Assembly (NCBI RefSeq): GCF_013304385.1
Contig: NZ_JAAITU010000004.1
Location: 62,001-126,000 of the forward strand
DNA length: 64,000 bases
Reading direction: 5' to 3'
From: Blautia glucerasea
GTDB lineage: Bacteria; Bacillota; Clostridia; Lachnospirales; Lachnospiraceae
A program made the position numbers and the translations under genes. Under the pieces are notes generated by a model, which was not told the DNA's origin, made no database searches, and was given only the letters and a program-made list of their open reading frames with translations. Shown here one piece after another: positions 24,256 through 63,500 of this stretch (within the stretch, counting starts at the first letter, position 1; the number at the start of each line of letters is the position of its first letter).

Positions 24256-25329
24256 ATGAAGAAAAAAACAGAAAGAATATACAGGACCATAGGAGTCTTT
24301 ACAACTGCTGCTATTGTGTTTTCCGGATGCGGAACAGGTCAGAGCCGGAAGGAGCAGGATGGGAAAAATCTGAAGATCGGGATCAGTGTGTATGATCAAT
24401 ATGATACGTTTGTGTCAGAGTTGGTTTCTAATTTTCAGGACTATGCAAAGACCAGGGAAAAAGACTGGGGGATTTCCATCACTATGGATGTGGAAAATGC
24501 CAATAAAAGCCAGATGATCCAGAATGATCAGATGGATGATTTTATTAAAGATGGGATGGACGTGGTCTGCATTAATCTGGTGGACCGGACAGATGCGTCC
24601 ACCATTATTGAAAAGGCCCAGGCTAGTGATGTGCCGGTGATCTTTTTTAACAGGGAACTGGTACAGGAAGATCTGGAACGGTGGGACAAGCTGTATTATG
24701 TAGGCGCAGATGCTTTTGAATCAGGAGAACTGCAGGGTGATATTCTGGTAGAAAAATGTAAAAAGGATTTTAACCGTATTGATAAGAATGGTGACGGAGT
24801 ACTTCAGTATATTATGCTGGAAGGAGAAGCCGGTCATAACGATTCTATGGTACGCACCATGTCTGTTATCAATGAGATCACTGGAAGTGGTTATCTGGTA
24901 GAGAAGCTTTCCGATGAGATCGCTAACTGGAACAGGGATCAGGCTGCAAATAAGATGAAGCAGTTCCTGGAGCGGTTCGGAAACAGGATTGAGGTAGTGC
25001 TTGCCAATAATGATGATATGGCACTTGGCGCAGTGGATGCGCTGGAAGCTGCAGGTTATGATCCGGATTCCCAGGACTGGCCCATGGTACTTGGGATCGA
25101 CGGTACAACAGTGGGACTGAACGCAGTCAATGATGGGAAAATGCTGGGAACTGTGCTAAATGATGCAGCGGGACAGGCAGATGGGATGCTGGAATTGGCA
25201 AGATCTATCACGGCAGGGACAAAACTTCCGGAGGAGTATGAGCTTCAGGACGGAAAGTACATCCGTATGCATTACAGGATCGTCACCCAGGAGAACCTGG
25301 GTGAGATCCAGATGCTTCTTATGAAGTAG
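24256..25329 (+). CDS. MglB-like galactose-binding lipoprotein, probable sensory component
   Basis: The 357-residue protein is a second galactose-binding-protein relative. Unlike MglB of this window it has a clear lipobox (AAIVFSGCG), so it is lipid-anchored. It shares with MglB the calcium loop (DKNGDGVLQY), VVLANNDDMALGAVDALEAAG and VLNDAAGQADGM. Position after the kinase and the other binding protein suggests that it senses the same hexose. The last 17 codons are copied 3.5 kb downstream as one arm of the direct repeat bounding the restriction island, so the island was inserted exactly at this 3' end. Confidence 0.88.
   Translation: MKKKTERIYRTIGVFTTAAIVFSGCGTGQSRKEQDGKNLKIGISVYDQYDTFVSELVSNFQDYAKTREKDWGISITMDVENANKSQMIQNDQMDDFIKDGMDVVCINLVDRTDASTIIEKAQASDVPVIFFNRELVQEDLERWDKLYYVGADAFESGELQGDILVEKCKKDFNRIDKNGDGVLQYIMLEGEAGHNDSMVRTMSVINEITGSGYLVEKLSDEIANWNRDQAANKMKQFLERFGNRIEVVLANNDDMALGAVDALEAAGYDPDSQDWPMVLGIDGTTVGLNAVNDGKMLGTVLNDAAGQADGMLELARSITAGTKLPEEYELQDGKYIRMHYRIVTQENLGEIQMLLMK
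25275..25326 (+). repeat. 52-bp direct repeat, left copy
   Basis: This stretch, beginning CAGGATCGTCACCCAGGAGA and ending CTTCTTATGAAG, covers the end of the binding-protein gene. It is repeated at 28760-28811 in the same orientation with a single mismatch (CCTGGG against CCAGGG). Confidence 0.95.
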
Positions 25330-25434
25330 GGAAGCAGCAAAATGTAAGAGAGAGGATGTTTTAGTAAATTTGTTACGTAATCAGAAGAAAATAGCAAATT
25401 TCATAATAATCGTGCAAAGGTATTGTTGAATAAA

Positions 25435-26304
25435 ATGCGGAAAAATGATAGTTTAAAACATAAATCAGCTTTAGATTTTGAATTCCCTAAAGAGATTAAA
25501 ATTCTACATAAAATATTAGATTGTGTTGAATTTCTAAAACAATTGCCGGATAATTCGATCCAGTTAATTTGCATTGATCCACCATATAATCTAAAACTTG
25601 CCGAATGGGATATATATAAGGATTATATTGGATGGGCATCAAAGTGGATTGATGAAGCCTATCGAGTTTTGTCCCAAAATGGAAATATGATTGTTTTTGG
25701 TGGGATACAATTTAGGGATACAAAGTCGGGTGATTTGTTTGATATTATACAGTATATAAGACACTATACGAAGTTTAAACTGATAAATACTATAATATGG
25801 CATTATAAAAATGGTATATCTGCACAGCGCTTTTTTGCCAATAGACATGAAGAGATAATTTGGTTAGCTAAAACAGAAAATTATTATTTTGACTTGGATT
25901 CAGTTAGAGTTCCTTATTCGGAGAAAGATTTGAAAAATGCATTAAAAGACAAAAGACTAAACCCGGAAAATACGAGAAAAGGGAAGAATCCTACCAATGT
26001 CTGGGAGGTTGGACGATTAAATGGAAACAGTAAAGAGCGCGTTGGGCATCCGACACAAAAACCCGTTGAGCTCATTGCACGGTTGGTAAAATCATTATCT
26101 TATCCTGGTGCTGTTGTATTGGATTTTTTTGCTGGTAGCGGAACAGTTGGAAGGGTATGTATAAATGAGGGGAGACATTGTTTAATGTGTGATAGTGATA
26201 AAAAATCACTTGAATACTTTGATAAACATCTTTTGGCGATGAAAGAGTTAGGCCAAAGCACATCATATAAAGCAATTGAAAATATTGATGATTTTTTTGT
26301 ATAA
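25435..26304 (+). CDS. M.RsrI-like DNA adenine methyltransferase (beta class), predicted GAATTC
   Basis: The product of about 290 residues is a beta-class N6-adenine methyltransferase: the catalytic motif IV is ICIDPPYNLKLAEWD near the N-terminus and the AdoMet motif I is VVLDFFAGSGT near the C-terminus. From memory, M.RsrI of Rhodobacter shares long stretches with it: DYIGWA, NGxSAQRFFANRHEEI, KDKRLNPE and GHPTQKP. RsrI is an isoschizomer of EcoRI, so GAATTC is the expected target. The start is uncertain: AAAGG at 25416-25420 is best spaced for TTG at 25426, while the ATG used here is further away. It stands directly before the EcoRI-like nuclease. The gene itself contains a GAATTC site (25480-25485). 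Confidence 0.9.
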   Translation: MRKNDSLKHKSALDFEFPKEIKILHKILDCVEFLKQLPDNSIQLICIDPPYNLKLAEWDIYKDYIGWASKWIDEAYRVLSQNGNMIVFGGIQFRDTKSGDLFDIIQYIRHYTKFKLINTIIWHYKNGISAQRFFANRHEEIIWLAKTENYYFDLDSVRVPYSEKDLKNALKDKRLNPENTRKGKNPTNVWEVGRLNGNSKERVGHPTQKPVELIARLVKSLSYPGAVVLDFFAGSGTVGRVCINEGRHCLMCDSDKKSLEYFDKHLLAMKELGQSTSYKAIENIDDFFV

Positions 26305-26326
26305 AGCACAAAAGGAGTATAAACGA

Positions 26327-27157
26327 ATGAAAAAAGAACAGTCTGATAGACTATCAGAGCAGCAAATAGAAGGACAAGGGCCAATTTCAATTTTTCATGA
26401 GGATGCACAGGTGCATGATAAAGAAGTGTCTAATACATCAATGATTGTAATGAATAGGCTTTCAGAGGAGTTCCCTATGTTGACTTTTCGTTATAGGAAG
26501 GAGCTTTCTAAAAAGGAGATTAATGAGGCTCTTAAGAAAATTGATAACTATTTGGGACAAACATTGTTTGTTGAAAATGCAAAAATTATCCCGGATGGCG
26601 GATTAATTGAAGTGAAGGACGATAATGGAAACTGGAGAGTGGTTGTCGTTTCAGAAGCGAAACATCAAGGAAAAGATATTGAAAATATACAAAGGGGTGT
26701 GTTGGTAGGAAAAAATAGAAATCAGGATACAATGGTTGCAGGTAATGCAATTGAAAGAGCACATAAAAATATTAGTGAAATTGCAAACTTTATGTTGGGA
26801 GAAAACTATTTTCCGTACATTCTTTTTCTTGAGGGCTCAAATTTTCTTACTGAAAATGTAAACGTAACAAGACCGGATGGAAGAGAAGTGATTTTGACAT
26901 ATAATGCGGGAGATTTGAATAGGCTTGATCGTTTAACTGCTTCAAATTACGGAATGCCTATCAATACAAATTTGTGTGAAAACAAGTTTGTTAAGTGTAA
27001 TGGTGTTACTATTATGCTGCAGGCGGCTTCAATCTATACAAAAGGAAAAGGAGGACATTGGAATGATGAAGATATGATCAATGTTATGTTGGATATTGCA
27101 AGAACGTCATTAAAAATGCTTGGAAAGGATTTGTTTATTCAGATTACAAGGAAGTAA
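26327..27157 (+). CDS. EcoRI-type type II restriction endonuclease, predicted GAATTC
   Basis: The 276-residue protein matches EcoRI (277 residues) along its whole length as I recall it: NEALKKID, TLFVENAKI, SEAKHQGKDIENI, AGNAIERAHKNISEIANFML, FLEGSNFLTEN, RLDRLTASNYGMPIN and LQAASIYTKG. The catalytic PD...ExK residues are intact (PDGGLIEVKDD, then SEAKH). The DNA-contact region following AGNAIER is also kept, so G^AATTC cutting is the natural prediction. The ATG was chosen for AAAGGAG ten bases upstream and because the product then aligns with the EcoRI start. It lies between two different methyltransferases. Confidence 0.96.
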   Translation: MKKEQSDRLSEQQIEGQGPISIFHEDAQVHDKEVSNTSMIVMNRLSEEFPMLTFRYRKELSKKEINEALKKIDNYLGQTLFVENAKIIPDGGLIEVKDDNGNWRVVVVSEAKHQGKDIENIQRGVLVGKNRNQDTMVAGNAIERAHKNISEIANFMLGENYFPYILFLEGSNFLTENVNVTRPDGREVILTYNAGDLNRLDRLTASNYGMPINTNLCENKFVKCNGVTIMLQAASIYTKGKGGHWNDEDMINVMLDIARTSLKMLGKDLFIQITRK

Positions 27158-27167
27158 GGTTTGATTT

Positions 27168-28115
27168 ATGAAAAAAAGAGTGGTTGATCATACACTTCTA
27201 GATAAAGCGAAAGTTAATAAAAAGGATGAGTTTTATACTCAGTTAATTGATATTGAAAAAGAAATGATTCATTATACAAAACATTTTAAAAATAAAACAG
27301 TATATTGTAATTGTGATAATCCTGAAATGTCGAATTTTTGGAAATACTTTCACGATCATTTTGTGGAGTTAAAATTAAAAAGACTATATGCAACATATTA
27401 CGGAAAGAGAGCTAGCTTTTATAGTTATGATGGAAAAAATGTAGAGATTACTTTATTGCAAGGAGATGGAGATTTTCGCAGTGATGAATGCGTAAAAATT
27501 TTAGAGCAGAGTGATATAGTTGTGACTAATCCCCCATTTTCGTTATTTAGAGAATATATAAGGCAATTAGACAGTTATAATAAAGATTTTCTTATCATTA
27601 GTAACATTAATGCAATTACTTACAAAGAAGTTTTTCCATTGATCCAGGCTAATAGAGCATGGTTGGGGGTTCGCTTTGGACGAGGAATATCCGGTTTTAT
27701 TGTTCCTGAAAGTTACGAATTGTATGGTACAGAAGCTAGAGTACATGAAAATGGTGACAGAATTATTTCGCCCAATAACTGTATGTGGTTAACTTCATTA
27801 GATAATGAAAAAAGACATCAGCCAATCAAGCTTGTAAAGAAATATGAAGGTAATGAAGAGGCATATCCATTTTATGATAATTACTGTGGAATAAATGTTA
27901 ATAAAACACAAGATATACCTGCCGATTATATGGGAGCGATGGGAGTGCCGATCACTTTTTTGAACAAGTACGATCCAGATCAGTTTGAGATTATTAAGTT
28001 TAGAAAGGGTGATGACGATAAGGATCTACGGGTGAATGGAAAAACTCCATATTTCCGAATTCTTATTAAAAGAAAAGAAGCAAAATGTTCGGGTTATTCC
28101 AGAAAGGTTATATAG
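27168..28115 (+). CDS. M.EcoRI-like adenine methyltransferase, predicted GAATTC
   Basis: The 315-residue protein belongs to the EcoRI methylase family: KKDEFYTQ, VYCNCDNPEMSNFWKYF, GDGDFRSDE, the catalytic TNPPFSLFREY (motif IV), GFIVPESYELYGTEARV and ISPNNCMWLT are all close to M.EcoRI as I recall it. It is unrelated in motif order and sequence to the M.RsrI-like enzyme two genes upstream, yet both should methylate the same site. It starts 11 bases after the nuclease gene, the same R-then-M order as in the EcoRI system. A GAATTC lies within it at 28057-28062. Confidence 0.95.
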   Translation: MKKRVVDHTLLDKAKVNKKDEFYTQLIDIEKEMIHYTKHFKNKTVYCNCDNPEMSNFWKYFHDHFVELKLKRLYATYYGKRASFYSYDGKNVEITLLQGDGDFRSDECVKILEQSDIVVTNPPFSLFREYIRQLDSYNKDFLIISNINAITYKEVFPLIQANRAWLGVRFGRGISGFIVPESYELYGTEARVHENGDRIISPNNCMWLTSLDNEKRHQPIKLVKKYEGNEEAYPFYDNYCGINVNKTQDIPADYMGAMGVPITFLNKYDPDQFEIIKFRKGDDDKDLRVNGKTPYFRILIKRKEAKCSGYSRKVI

Positions 28116-28652
28116 ATGATCATTTGGATAGATGGCTCCAATGGAGTCGGAAAATCATGTGTGGCAGAAGAACTGGCAAAAGTTTTTAAGAATGAGAATG
28201 CTGAATACATAGAATCGGACTTATATTGGATGAAATGGATGGGGGAAAATCCGGCAAAAACTCTTGCAGGAATGTTTCCTTATCATAATAAATATTTTTT
28301 AAAAGAATTTAGAAATGATTTAGAGGTTCAAATTCATTTAGAAAAAATGCTAATAGTATCAATGTCTCTTGTTGATAAATTATGTAAGGCGGAGCTATTA
28401 GATTATTTTGAAGCAAGACAAATTCCAATGATGCATGTAATTCTTGAGGCTTCAAAAGATACAATTAAGTTGCGTATAAAAAATGATGATATACGTAATC
28501 CAGAAATACAAAGGCAACAGATGGAGAAGGTTGGATGGCAAGTAGAATATTTGAATAAAAATTATTTGGAAGCGATTAGAGTTAGTACAGAAAATAAGAA
28601 TATAGAAGAAATCGTTGATGAAATAAAAAATAGTATAGAAAAAATGAGTTGA
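28116..28652 (+). CDS. TmrB-like P-loop protein
   Basis: The 178-residue protein starts MIIWIDGSNGVGKSCVAEEL, a Walker A in the same setting as TmrB (tunicamycin resistance) and related small kinases. A following segment (LIVSMSLVDK, then MHVILEASKDTIKLRI) also fits TmrB-like proteins, and a LID-like Arg/Asn-rich region and a C-terminal IEEIVDEI helix follow. The start codon touches the stop of the methyltransferase (TAGATG), so it is cotranslated with the island. Role is unknown: it may be a resistance or nucleotide/sugar kinase cargo, or have a part in the restriction system. Confidence 0.72.
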   Translation: MIIWIDGSNGVGKSCVAEELAKVFKNENAEYIESDLYWMKWMGENPAKTLAGMFPYHNKYFLKEFRNDLEVQIHLEKMLIVSMSLVDKLCKAELLDYFEARQIPMMHVILEASKDTIKLRIKNDDIRNPEIQRQQMEKVGWQVEYLNKNYLEAIRVSTENKNIEEIVDEIKNSIEKMS

Positions 28653-28759
28653 ACAAGGAAAATGAGAATATGAATATGAAGATAAACATCCTTTTGAACC
28701 ATGTTTGGACAAATATCTATGCTTGAAATTTGATGATTAAAATGAATTATTGTGTCACT

Positions 28760-28811
28760 CAGGATCGTCACCCAGGAGAACCAGGGTGAGATCCAGATGC
28801 TTCTTATGAAG
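28760..28811 (+). repeat. 52-bp direct repeat, right copy
   Basis: This copy of the 3' end of the upstream binding-protein gene has 51 of 52 bases identical. It lies in intergenic DNA 13 bases before the end of the asparaginase gene and marks the right edge of the restriction island. Confidence 0.95.
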
Positions 28812-28824
28812 AAATAGGATATTC

Positions 28825-29826
28825 TTAAACAAACAGCAGGTCATGATTTACAGTTGTGTAGAAAAGCTGACGGCAGGCGTCATAGTCCTGGGTCTGGGCC
28901 AGTGCCCACATCAGCTTTGTTACAGACGCTTCCAGAGTCATATCATAGGATTCCAGGATAGGAAAACGCTCTTTGATCATTTTGCCTACCTGATATACTT
29001 CCAGGTCACTGCCCTCGTGTGTGACCTGGGTAGCCATACAGACGATCTTGCCGGAGGATATCCATGTTTCCAGTGAGGCCTGGAAGCTGGAGTCCCCATA
29101 GTCCGGAAGCCCTCCTACCCCAAAGGATTCTATGATCAATCCGTCATAGGAATCCGCCAGCATATCCAGGATACGTCCGTCAATGCCTGGAACCAGCTTC
29201 AATAAAAAGATCTTTCGGTTCATATCATGATAAAACTGAAGAGGTCTGGTGGATTGGTCTTTATCATCAATATAGAAGATGATCCGTTCATCATGGATAG
29301 AAGCAATATCCGGATAATTAATACTGGAAAAAGCATTATAGCTTTTGGAAAATTCTTTCTTTGCCCGTGTTCCGGCAATGACTTTACCGCCAAATACAAT
29401 AGACACGCCGTGGGCACGGTCATGGGAAGCAAAACGCAGGCTGTCCAGCAGGTTGGAACGGGCATCGGTAATAGCCAGGTCGATAGGCTTTTGTGCACCT
29501 GTGATCACTACAGGACGCCGGTTATTCTGGATCAGATAGGAAAGGGCAGCTGCAGTGTAAGCCATGGTATCTGTGCCATGACAGATCACGAAGCCATCAT
29601 AAAATTCATACTTTTTTTCAATGAGAGCCGCCAGCTGGATCCAGTGCTGGGGGCTTATATTGGTACTGTCCAGAGAAAAGGGCTGCAGTGTGTCAATGGT
29701 GCAGAAGGCGGACGCTGCAGGGATATAGGAGAGAAGTTTCTCTGCAGAGATCTGAGGAGAAAGGCCGTCCTTGGTATATTTGGATGCAATGGTGCCGCCT
29801 GTGGCGATTAGTAAGATTTTCTTCAT
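28825..29826 (-). CDS. ansA: L-asparaginase (type I)
   Basis: The 333-residue cytoplasmic enzyme hydrolyses asparagine to aspartate and ammonia. Visible are ILLIATGGTIASKY with the first catalytic Thr, GFVICHGTDTMAYTAAAL with the second Thr-Asp pair, and ITGAQKPI, with length typical of AnsA. No signal peptide is present. A CGGAGG ribosome site precedes the start on the minus strand. It faces the island that was inserted at the far side of its 3' end. Confidence 0.95.
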   Translation of the reverse strand: MKKILLIATGGTIASKYTKDGLSPQISAEKLLSYIPAASAFCTIDTLQPFSLDSTNISPQHWIQLAALIEKKYEFYDGFVICHGTDTMAYTAAALSYLIQNNRRPVVITGAQKPIDLAITDARSNLLDSLRFASHDRAHGVSIVFGGKVIAGTRAKKEFSKSYNAFSSINYPDIASIHDERIIFYIDDKDQSTRPLQFYHDMNRKIFLLKLVPGIDGRILDMLADSYDGLIIESFGVGGLPDYGDSSFQASLETWISSGKIVCMATQVTHEGSDLEVYQVGKMIKERFPILESYDMTLEASVTKLMWALAQTQDYDACRQLFYTTVNHDLLFV

Positions 29827-60520: not shown

Positions 60521-63500
60521 ATGAGAACCAATTTTGATTATTTAAAAGCGGAATCAAAATTCTCAAGCTTTGCAGATGTGGCTATATCGGCAGAAAAAAT
60601 TATATTAATGGATCCGGAAGCAAGTATTCTCAATTGCCGCAGGGCGATGGAATTTGCGATTAAGTGGATGTATTCTGTAGATGCGGAACTGGAAAAGCCC
60701 TATCAGGATAATCTGCAAAATCTGATGAATGCAGAAGAGTATAGACAGATTATAGGATCTGACTTGTGGAAGCGTATGGATTATATCCGCAGAAGTGGAA
60801 ACAATGTTGCACATAGTAATAAAAAATTAGGCAGAGATGAAGCAATGCTTTGTCTGGAGAATCTGTTTATTTATTTGGATTATATTGCATATTGTTATGC
60901 AGATCAGTACGAGGAACATTCATTTGATAAAACAATCATAACATCCAGAATTAAGAAGGCTAAGGAATCAACGGAAGCGGCAAAAACAGCAAGAATAGAA
61001 TTAGAAAAAGAGCAGGAAAAATTTGCCAGACAAGAACTTGACTTACAGAAATTAATGGAAGAAAATGCCTCTCTTAAAGAAAAACTGTCTGCCCGCAGGC
61101 TGGAACAGCAGCAGACGTATGTGCCGAAGCCACTTGATCTATCTGAATATAAAACCCGGAAGCTTTATATTGATTCTATGTTAATGGATGCAGGGTGGAT
61201 AGAAGGCAAGGACTGGATGAATGAAGTTGAACTTTTCGGGATGCCAAATAAGTCAGAAACTGGACGTGCAGATTATGTTCTTTATGATGATATGCATCGA
61301 CCATTGGCAATTGTAGAAGCCAAAAGAACTTGTGTTGATATTTCAAAAGGAAGACAACAGGCAAAACTTTATGCTGATATACTGGAACAACAATATAAAA
61401 GAAGACCGGTTGTTTTTCTTACCAATGGATTCGAGACGCATATTATTGATGGTCAATATCCGGAAAGAAAATGTTCAGTTATTTATTCTAAAAGAGATTT
61501 GGAAAAGTGGTTTAATTTACTGACCATAAGAACCAGCCTGAAACATGTGACAGTGGACAAAGCGATTGCAGGAAGATATTATCAGGAAGCTGCGGTTAAA
61601 GCAGTATGCAGCAGTTTTGATGAGAAGAACCGGAGAAAGGCCTTACTCGTTATGGCAACAGGTTCAGGAAAAACAAGAACAGCCATTGCATTATGCAAGT
61701 GCCTGCTGGATGCCGGCTGGGTAAAGAATATTCTTTTTCTGGCAGACAGAAATTCATTGGTGACACAGGCTAAAAGAAGTTTTGTGAATGCATTTTCAGA
61801 CAGATTATCTTGTACAAATCTTGTTGAGGAAAAAGATAATTACAATGCACAGTGTGTTTTCTCAACTTATCAAACCATGATAAACTGTATTGATGTAGTA
61901 AATGATAATTGTGGAAAGCTGTTTACGTGCGGGCATTTTGATCTTGTAATCTGTGATGAAGCACATAGATCAATTTACAATAAATATAGAGATATATTTA
62001 CATACTTCGATGCACCACTGGTGGGACTTACCGCTACCCCCAAGGATGAAATTGATAAGAATACTTACGAAGTGTTTGAACTGGAAAATGGTGTTCCTAC
62101 ATATGGTTATGATTTGGCGCAGGCTGTAAAAGACGGATATCTTGTAGATTATATTTCTGTTGAATCAAAGCTTAAGTTTATTGAACAGGGTATTGTGTAT
62201 GATGAATTATCAGAAGAAGATAAGGAAGCATATGAGCGAACTTTTGAGGGGGAACATGGTAATCTGCCGGAAGCTATTAGTTCATCAGCGTTGAATACGT
62301 GGATATTTAACGAGGATACGATAAAACAGGTACTGAATATCCTGATGACAGAAGGGCTGCGAGTGGATTATGGTCAAAAACTGGGCAAGACGATTATTTT
62401 TGCCAAGAATCATGATCATGCAGAAAAAATACTTGAAGTTTTTAATAAAGAATATCCACATCTGCCTGATTTTTCAAAGGTTATAGATAACTATATAACC
62501 TATGCACAGAGTGCGATCGATGAGTTTTCCGATCCCAAGAAGATGCCTCAGATAGCTATTTCTGTAGATATGCTGGATACAGGCATTGATGTGCCAGAGG
62601 TTTTGAATCTGGTGTTTTTCAAAAAAGTGATGAGCAAAGCAAAATTCTGGCAAATGATAGGAAGAGGAACAAGGCTTTGTCCAGGTTTGCTTGATGGAGA
62701 AGACAAGCAGAAGTTTTATATTTTTGATTTCTGTGGAAATTTTGAATTTTTCCGTATGAATAAAGGGAAAGCTACCGCCAATATGATTGCGCTTCAGGGA
62801 GCGATTTTTAATCTGAAGTTTGAAATTTCCTATAAGCTTCAGAATATTGAGTACCAAATTGACCGATTAATTGCATATCGCAAAGCGTTGGTGAAACAAA
62901 TGAGTGAAAAAGTACAGGAATTACCAAGAGATAACTTTGCTGTGCGGCAACACTTGAAATATGTGGAACTATATTCTTCAGAAAAGAATTATAATACACT
63001 TACATATGAAGACACTTTAATTATTAGGGAAGAAGTTGCACCTTTGATATTGCCAGACGGAGACGATGCAAGTGCAGTGCGGTTTGATGCGCTTATATAT
63101 GGAATTGAACTGGCTTACTTAGTGGGGAAAAAGTATTTAAAGGCCCGAACCGATTTACATAAAAAAGTGGATCAGGTTGCAGGTGTGGCTAATATTCCGG
63201 AAATTCAGGCACAATCTGATTTGATTCATAAGATTTTGAATACCGACTATTTGGATCATGCCGGGATTAATGAGTTTGAGGAAATCAGAGAAAGACTTCG
63301 TGGTTTAATGAAGTATATTCCAAAAGGCAATGTGAAATATGTTACCAATTTTGCAGATGAACTTCTTTCAACAGAGTGGAAAGAAGCGGAACTTGAAAAT
63401 GATGAATTGACGAATTATAAAGCAAAGGCAGAGTATTATATCAGGCAGCATCAGGATAATATAGTGATTGCGAAGTTAAAGACAAATAAGCCTTTGACAT

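Follow-up and report, generated by a model that had tools for sequence, protein, structure and literature searches.

The restriction endonucleases EcoRI and RsrI are related but their methyltransferases are not, a long-known puzzle, and M.EcoRI alone protects against EcoRI. Some type II systems are already known to possess two isospecific methyltransferases. DpnII (with DpnM and DpnA) and BcnI each combine one nuclease with two methyltransferases, one of which is reported to act on single-stranded DNA (PMC5974420, PMC3573125). An EcoRI-type nuclease together with both the M.RsrI and the M.EcoRI kind of methyltransferase would be a new variant of such systems; in the open-licence literature, as far as its accessible portions go and including those of PMC4081073, PMC5896346 and PMC12707154, no report of this combination was found.

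The window analyzed here is the whole stretch of 64,000 nucleotides from a contig of Blautia glucerasea (NZ_JAAITU010000004.1, positions 62,001 to 126,000). It harbors three adjacent open reading frames on the plus strand that encode, in this order, an M.RsrI-like methyltransferase (M1), an EcoRI-type nuclease (R) and an M.EcoRI-like methyltransferase (M2). The same order had been proposed in an earlier note on this DNA and was borne out by the reading frames, Pfam and matches to the PDB. The locus resembles DpnII and BcnI in that two methyltransferase genes, predicted here to be isospecific, stand beside a single type II nuclease gene, but the nuclease and its site are different. Furthermore, one methyltransferase of those systems is reported to work on single-stranded DNA, and the present doubling arose independently in two groups and from opposite halves. 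We consider it probable that the locus is a GAATTC-specific type II system, in which R is guarded by two unrelated isospecific methyltransferases and which would be passing through a slow, buffered exchange of partners.

Organization of the locus

The features of the locus and its flanks are the following.

24256-25329: periplasmic binding protein gene, left neighbour of the four-gene stretch
25381..25422, plus strand: eroded remnant of the N-terminal arm of M1 (from DNA comparison with loci L010, L030, L012 and L023)
25423..26304 (or from 25435), plus strand: M1, M.RsrI-like beta-class adenine methyltransferase, DPPY first (PF01555, 1eg2)
26327..27157, plus strand: R, EcoRI-type restriction endonuclease, predicted to cut G/AATTC (PF02963, 2oxv)
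27168..28115, plus strand: M2, M.EcoRI-like adenine methyltransferase with NPPF (PF13651)
28116..28652, plus strand: P-loop kinase-like gene (weak PF13671 and VakA matches)
28825-29826, minus strand: asparaginase gene, right neighbour of the four-gene stretch

The four plus-strand genes M1, R, M2 and the kinase-like gene lie in a stretch of low G+C content (0.32-0.37 per kb across 25001-29000; surroundings mostly 0.43-0.48). The match scores exclude chance for the identities of M1 (PF01555, E 1.4e-56; best PDB match M.RsrI, 1eg2, E 8.4e-99), R (PF02963, E 2.7e-139, 462.9 bits against a cut-off of 22; EcoRI, 2oxv, E 1.8e-113) and M2 (PF13651, E 1.9e-115, 386.3 bits against a cut-off of 26.4, in two stretches). 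The host genome (4.0 Mb, 175 contigs) contains one EcoRI-family gene. A genome-wide search revealed no second M.EcoRI-family gene, and the M1 profile gave only weak partial matches apart from M1 itself. The kinase-like gene begins on the base directly after the stop codon of M2. Its membership in the system was considered and rejected, as no relative occurs beside R in the other loci scanned; it probably lies outside the system. A relative of the asparaginase gene is present in genome G398 (74%), where the adjoining DNA looked different on reading, and a search from the asparaginase side showed no clean empty site in the genus.

Distribution of EcoRI-type loci

The genome collection yielded 283 relatives of R, of which the best 80, ranked by closeness to the window, were used. 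Further relatives came from viral contigs (11), plasmids (19 records) and phages (1), and eight of the plasmid or phage records were examined. A duplicate (L001) and three weak R matches (L007, L099 and L100) were dropped. In total, 97 loci with a good R match, including the window, were classified; since the best 80 of 283 were chosen by closeness, the proportions of the classes are biased towards the kin of the window. M1 is the only methyltransferase at 46 loci (upstream of R in 34, downstream in 12) and M2 at 39 (downstream of R in 38, upstream in one), while eight loci harbor both and four harbor neither in full. The earlier note had suggested searching other genomes for the three-gene order, and it recurs at seven further loci, which makes 8 of 97 with the window. 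All eight carry M1 upstream and M2 downstream of R. Two of them, L010 and L030, are Lachnospiraceae metagenome assemblies and the nearest to the window at this locus; together with the window they are referred to as the trio. The other five belong to Bacteroidota, namely L055, L082, L083 and L088 (Prevotella or Prevotellaceae) and L075 (Flavobacteriaceae). Within the family of the window, an EcoRI-family match occurs in 3 of 397 genomes, its own genome included.

The window thereby shares features with both classical systems. With EcoRI it has in common a nuclease of about 64% identity and an M.EcoRI-family methyltransferase directly downstream of it, but the E. coli plasmid examined has no M.RsrI-like gene beside the nuclease, whereas the window has one upstream. 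With RsrI-type systems it shares an M1 that is close to M.RsrI and precedes R, as at the 34 of 97 loci with M1 upstream and no M2; in contrast to the window, the RsrI-type loci in the census have no M.EcoRI-type gene beside them.

Four of the five Bacteroidota doubles (L055, L082, L083 and L088) carry an additional methyltransferase gene of about 400 residues (PF01555) between M1 and R, which brings the number of methyltransferase genes beside the EcoRI-type nuclease to three. The best PDB match of this third enzyme in L083 is CcrM. L046 combines M1, the methyltransferase of about 400 residues and R, with no M2. L101 (genome G146), from the same family as the window, shows the opposite of the usual order, with an M.EcoRI-like gene upstream of an EcoRI-like gene that is truncated where the contig ends.

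Predicted specificity of the nuclease and the methyltransferases

The earlier note had described both methyltransferases as intact. For the catalytic motifs this applies to all three proteins: M1 keeps DPPY and FAGSGT, in the order typical of the beta class with DPPY first, M2 has a complete core with NPPF, and R retains the PDGG and EAKHQG motifs. R, whose start at ATG 26327 was chosen by homology, aligns with EcoRI over its length. It possesses the active-site residues D91, E111 and K113 as well as the recognition residues M137, G140, N141, E144, R145, R200 and R203 of EcoRI, all with roles that we assume from the EcoRI literature. Because both catalytic and recognition residues are kept, cleavage of GAATTC by R is strongly predicted. 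Position A138 of EcoRI is a valine in R. The idea that this substitution marks a relaxed specificity of double systems was rejected, since the position also varies in loci with a single methyltransferase (V, I, S, P, E, D and others).

M2 has no solved relative in the PDB. Its predicted structure comprises a confident Rossmann-like first half and a poor later part, with a pLDDT under 50 in several stretches, and a fold search with this model returned nothing at or below E 0.001. In the M2 tree with viral relatives, the trio M2s lie within the clade holding the R-linked M2s, which favours EcoRI specificity, and their sister comes from an R-M2 system on a Rhodococcus plasmid (support 100/99). 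Among the viral relatives of M2, 72 of the best 80 of 278 lack R in the DNA examined; 20 such R-less viral M2s were included in the tree, 14 of which fall outside and six inside the R-linked clade. An origin of M2 as a captured orphan phage methyltransferase is disfavoured by the position of the trio among R-linked M2s. A nuclease of the EcoRI type is also absent from the DNA examined at 6 of 14 viral M1 loci.

The earlier note had also raised the possibility that one of the methyltransferases has shifted its specificity or acts as a regulator, a suggestion that gained little here and that we regard as very improbable. It could draw on the long stem branch of the trio in the M2 tree (0.66), on a shortened hairpin loop, whose span is 44 in the window, L010 and L030 compared to 51-87 in 33 other measurable M2s, and on changes at conserved positions. 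At the 116 columns that 40 other M2s conserve, the window shows five alterations, L010 five and L030 four, compared to leave-one-out alterations in the other M2s with a median of 1 and a maximum of 11 (in the sister, L005). However, 111 of the 116 columns are kept in the window, the M1 type alone serves related nucleases, and Pfam detects no added DNA-binding domain in M1 or M2.

Origins of the double arrangement

Trees and conservation counts were computed with truncated or very divergent rows left out. In the M1 tree the trio forms a single clade (98-99) nested within the M1-R group, and the Bacteroidota M1s constitute a separate clade (98) with L046 and the Acinetobacter plasmid locus L006. 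The trio is likewise a single clade (99) in the M2 tree, away from the Bacteroidota doubles. In the nuclease tree, a quick tree with many open forks, R of the window and L010 belongs to the M1-R group, outside of which, among R-M2 rows, the five Bacteroidota doubles are found. A single clade of all eight doubles, a group defined by gene content and not by a tree, is rejected for M1 (p-AU 1.5e-11) and for M2 (p-AU 1.1e-73). This shows at least two origins of the M1-R-M2 order. The simplest course is that M2 was added to an M1-R system in the group of the window and M1 was added to an R-M2 system in Bacteroidota.

Partners have changed repeatedly along the nuclease tree. In Fibrobacter, nuclease and methylase are reported to fall into different branches (PMC5896346), a mismatch that fits partner exchange. 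Acquisition of M2 by a crossover inside R was also considered and finds no support, as R of the window agrees with M1-R nucleases at 11 of 12 diagnostic columns, among them the two closest to the C-terminus; ambiguity is confined to the last few residues. R of L030 is placed elsewhere in the M1-R group, apart from window and L010, and forcing the R proteins of the trio together is not rejected (p-AU 0.077). The L030 gene (L030:5968-6837) looks mosaic, with an M1-R-like body and the last 27 residues identical to L010, and a part of this R may have been exchanged.

A broader reading connects these origins into a convergent assembly, from opposite halves, of a stable M1-R-M2 system, the two isospecific methyltransferases of which would have different jobs and which, being buffered, would provide the nuclease lineage with a route for swapping its methyltransferase. 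We hold this only as a tentative possibility.

Constraint on the three genes and loss of the M1 arm

Between window and L010, dN/dS is 0.084 for M1, 0.051 for R and 0.052 for M2 with dS at 1.2-1.3. Synonymous sites have reached saturation in most comparisons involving L030 (pS 0.74-0.89), where pN is still 0.08-0.15. These values indicate that M1, R and M2 were kept functional for most of the divergence time. Such long constraint on all three genes speaks against a fleeting intermediate.

The claim that both methyltransferases are intact does not extend to the 5' end of M1, where the ancestral start codon has been lost together with the N[KR]SH arm of the N-terminus. The M1 of relatives starts with M-A-I-H-N-K-S-H or similar, whereas the aligned codons of the window read S-E-E-N-S-K-F-H and directly follow an in-frame TAA (25378-25380). 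The arm remnant precedes every possible ATG, GTG or TTG start. The earliest usable starts are TTG 25423, TTG 25426 and ATG 25435, and reading by eye revealed an SD-like AAAGG at 25416-25420, ahead of the TTG starts. M.RsrI itself differs from M1 of the window in carrying the arm, as N-R-S-H. The arm was scored in 53 of the 54 M1 genes near an R, all except that of L017, which is truncated at a contig end. It is found in 51 and missing in the window and in the divergent L015. M1 of the window thus lacks this mark of the M.RsrI type, but its body still lies within the family. At L015 a close relative of R is paired with an M.RsrI-like enzyme that is also arm-less, so the arm may be dispensable. 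In the predicted structure of L030 M1 the first nine residues are disordered and are followed by a helix of middling confidence (residues 11-21).

Changes found only in the window affect 8 of 16 columns of the arm compared to 24 of the 291 body columns (Fisher p 4e-5), the pattern that would result if translation still covered the body but had ceased in the arm. A plain decay of M1, by which it would be an early pseudogene left without a role after replacement by M2, would account for this loss of start codon and arm. It would also agree with the window-only changes of the M1 body, which exceed those of R (10/287, p 0.02), and with changes at 111 columns that are conserved across 48 other M1s: the window differs at five of them, three in the arm and two in the body (M146I and I210V), L010 and L030 at none. 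However, the body shows no excess over M2 (18/306, p 0.27), its catalytic motifs are intact, about 290 codons still form an open frame that is constrained relative to L010, and possible starts with an SD-like stretch remain. We therefore consider plain decay unlikely. The window also leads L010 in lineage-specific changes, with 24 versus 16 in the M1 body and 18 versus 8 in M2. All five relative-rate tests of M1 exceed 3.84, but they are not independent and include the arm; M2 gives 3.85, and R reaches 4.0 with one of five outgroups, leaning like M1. Since M2 and R lean likewise and the tests include the arm, a gene-wide relaxation of M1 finds no clear support.

Proposed redundant protection and partner exchange

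The M.EcoRI family was searched for in 20 genomes, two of which are the doubles L010 and L030 and 18 of which contain M1-R only, with an R that is 69-81% identical to R of the window. In 16 of these 18 no PF13651 match was found anywhere, although such absences are soft, as most relatives are metagenome assemblies. M1 of this kind therefore seems to protect relatives of R on its own. Of the two others, the genome of L038 contains a fragment at a contig end and that of L014 a copy with three stops. A broken M.EcoRI-like gene (L109, L113) is located about 25 kb from the M1-R genes of L014 on the same contig and is perhaps the lost M2 of an M1-R genome.

The double protection proposed in the earlier note thereby receives indirect backing from M1 standing alone beside related nucleases and from the nesting of M2 among R-linked methyltransferases. 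For the preferred reading of two isospecific guards, the following course is suggested by the gene comparisons. An ancestral M1-R system would have gained M2 downstream of R from an R-M2 lineage. Either methyltransferase should suffice for methylation of GAATTC, so the host DNA would be protected twice over, and the system would tolerate that one of them is lost or weakly expressed. The double arrangement appears to have lasted while the three loci of the trio diverged, with all three genes constrained. In the lineage of the window M1 then lost its start codon and arm, which probably lowered its dose or activity. We infer that M2 probably bears more of the protection, as would be expected of a slow partner exchange in a buffered state. 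Concerning the exchange intermediate that the earlier note had envisaged, the partner changes in the nuclease tree and the lost 5' end of M1 agree indirectly with exchange, whereas three diverged double loci, the constraint and the independent second origin speak against a fleeting state. The double system is thus probably long-lived, and the copy in the window may be drifting towards dependence on M2.

A stable division of labour was also weighed, in which one methyltransferase would act on double-stranded host DNA and the other on another substrate or at another time, for instance on DNA that is single-stranded or entering the cell, or while the system becomes established in a new host. Opposite starting points led to the double state on at least two occasions, both methyltransferases are retained under constraint, and DpnM/DpnA and BcnI offer precedents (PMC5974420, PMC3573125). 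The identical gene order of all eight doubles suggests a benefit, and its recurrence hints that this benefit goes beyond chance. On the other hand, 85 of 97 loci manage with one kind of methyltransferase only, a promoter scan gave 12 sites compared to 17.2 in shuffles, and M1 of the window has lost conserved residues. A division of labour thus appears rather unlikely. Under the preferred reading of redundant protection, the double loci suggest how a restriction enzyme could replace its antidote while the cell stays protected throughout. The group of the window and the Bacteroidota set represent natural replicates for one of the best-known enzymes, which makes the swap testable with single-gene constructs.

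GAATTC content

GAATTC occurs nine times in the window, compared to an expectation of 26.7 (sd 5.0). With 188 sites per Mb the host genome has the lowest density of 13 in the genus, the others ranging from 276 to 437 (their genome sizes are rounded). The controls CTTAAG, CTATAG, GTATAC and CATATG, which have the same composition, are within the range of the genus. However, the density of GATATC, the fifth control of this kind, is also lowest in the host genome (G000; 419 per Mb, next 446), and the deficit of GAATTC is thus only partly specific. The scarcity of GAATTC offers fair though not strong backing for a long-resident, active system. The two sites reported in the earlier note within the methyltransferase genes, at 25480-25485 and 28057-28062, are present. 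They have little meaning, as across the loci 8 of 54 genes for M1 and 8 of 47 for M2 contain a GAATTC; the methyltransferase genes of L010 and L030 contain none.
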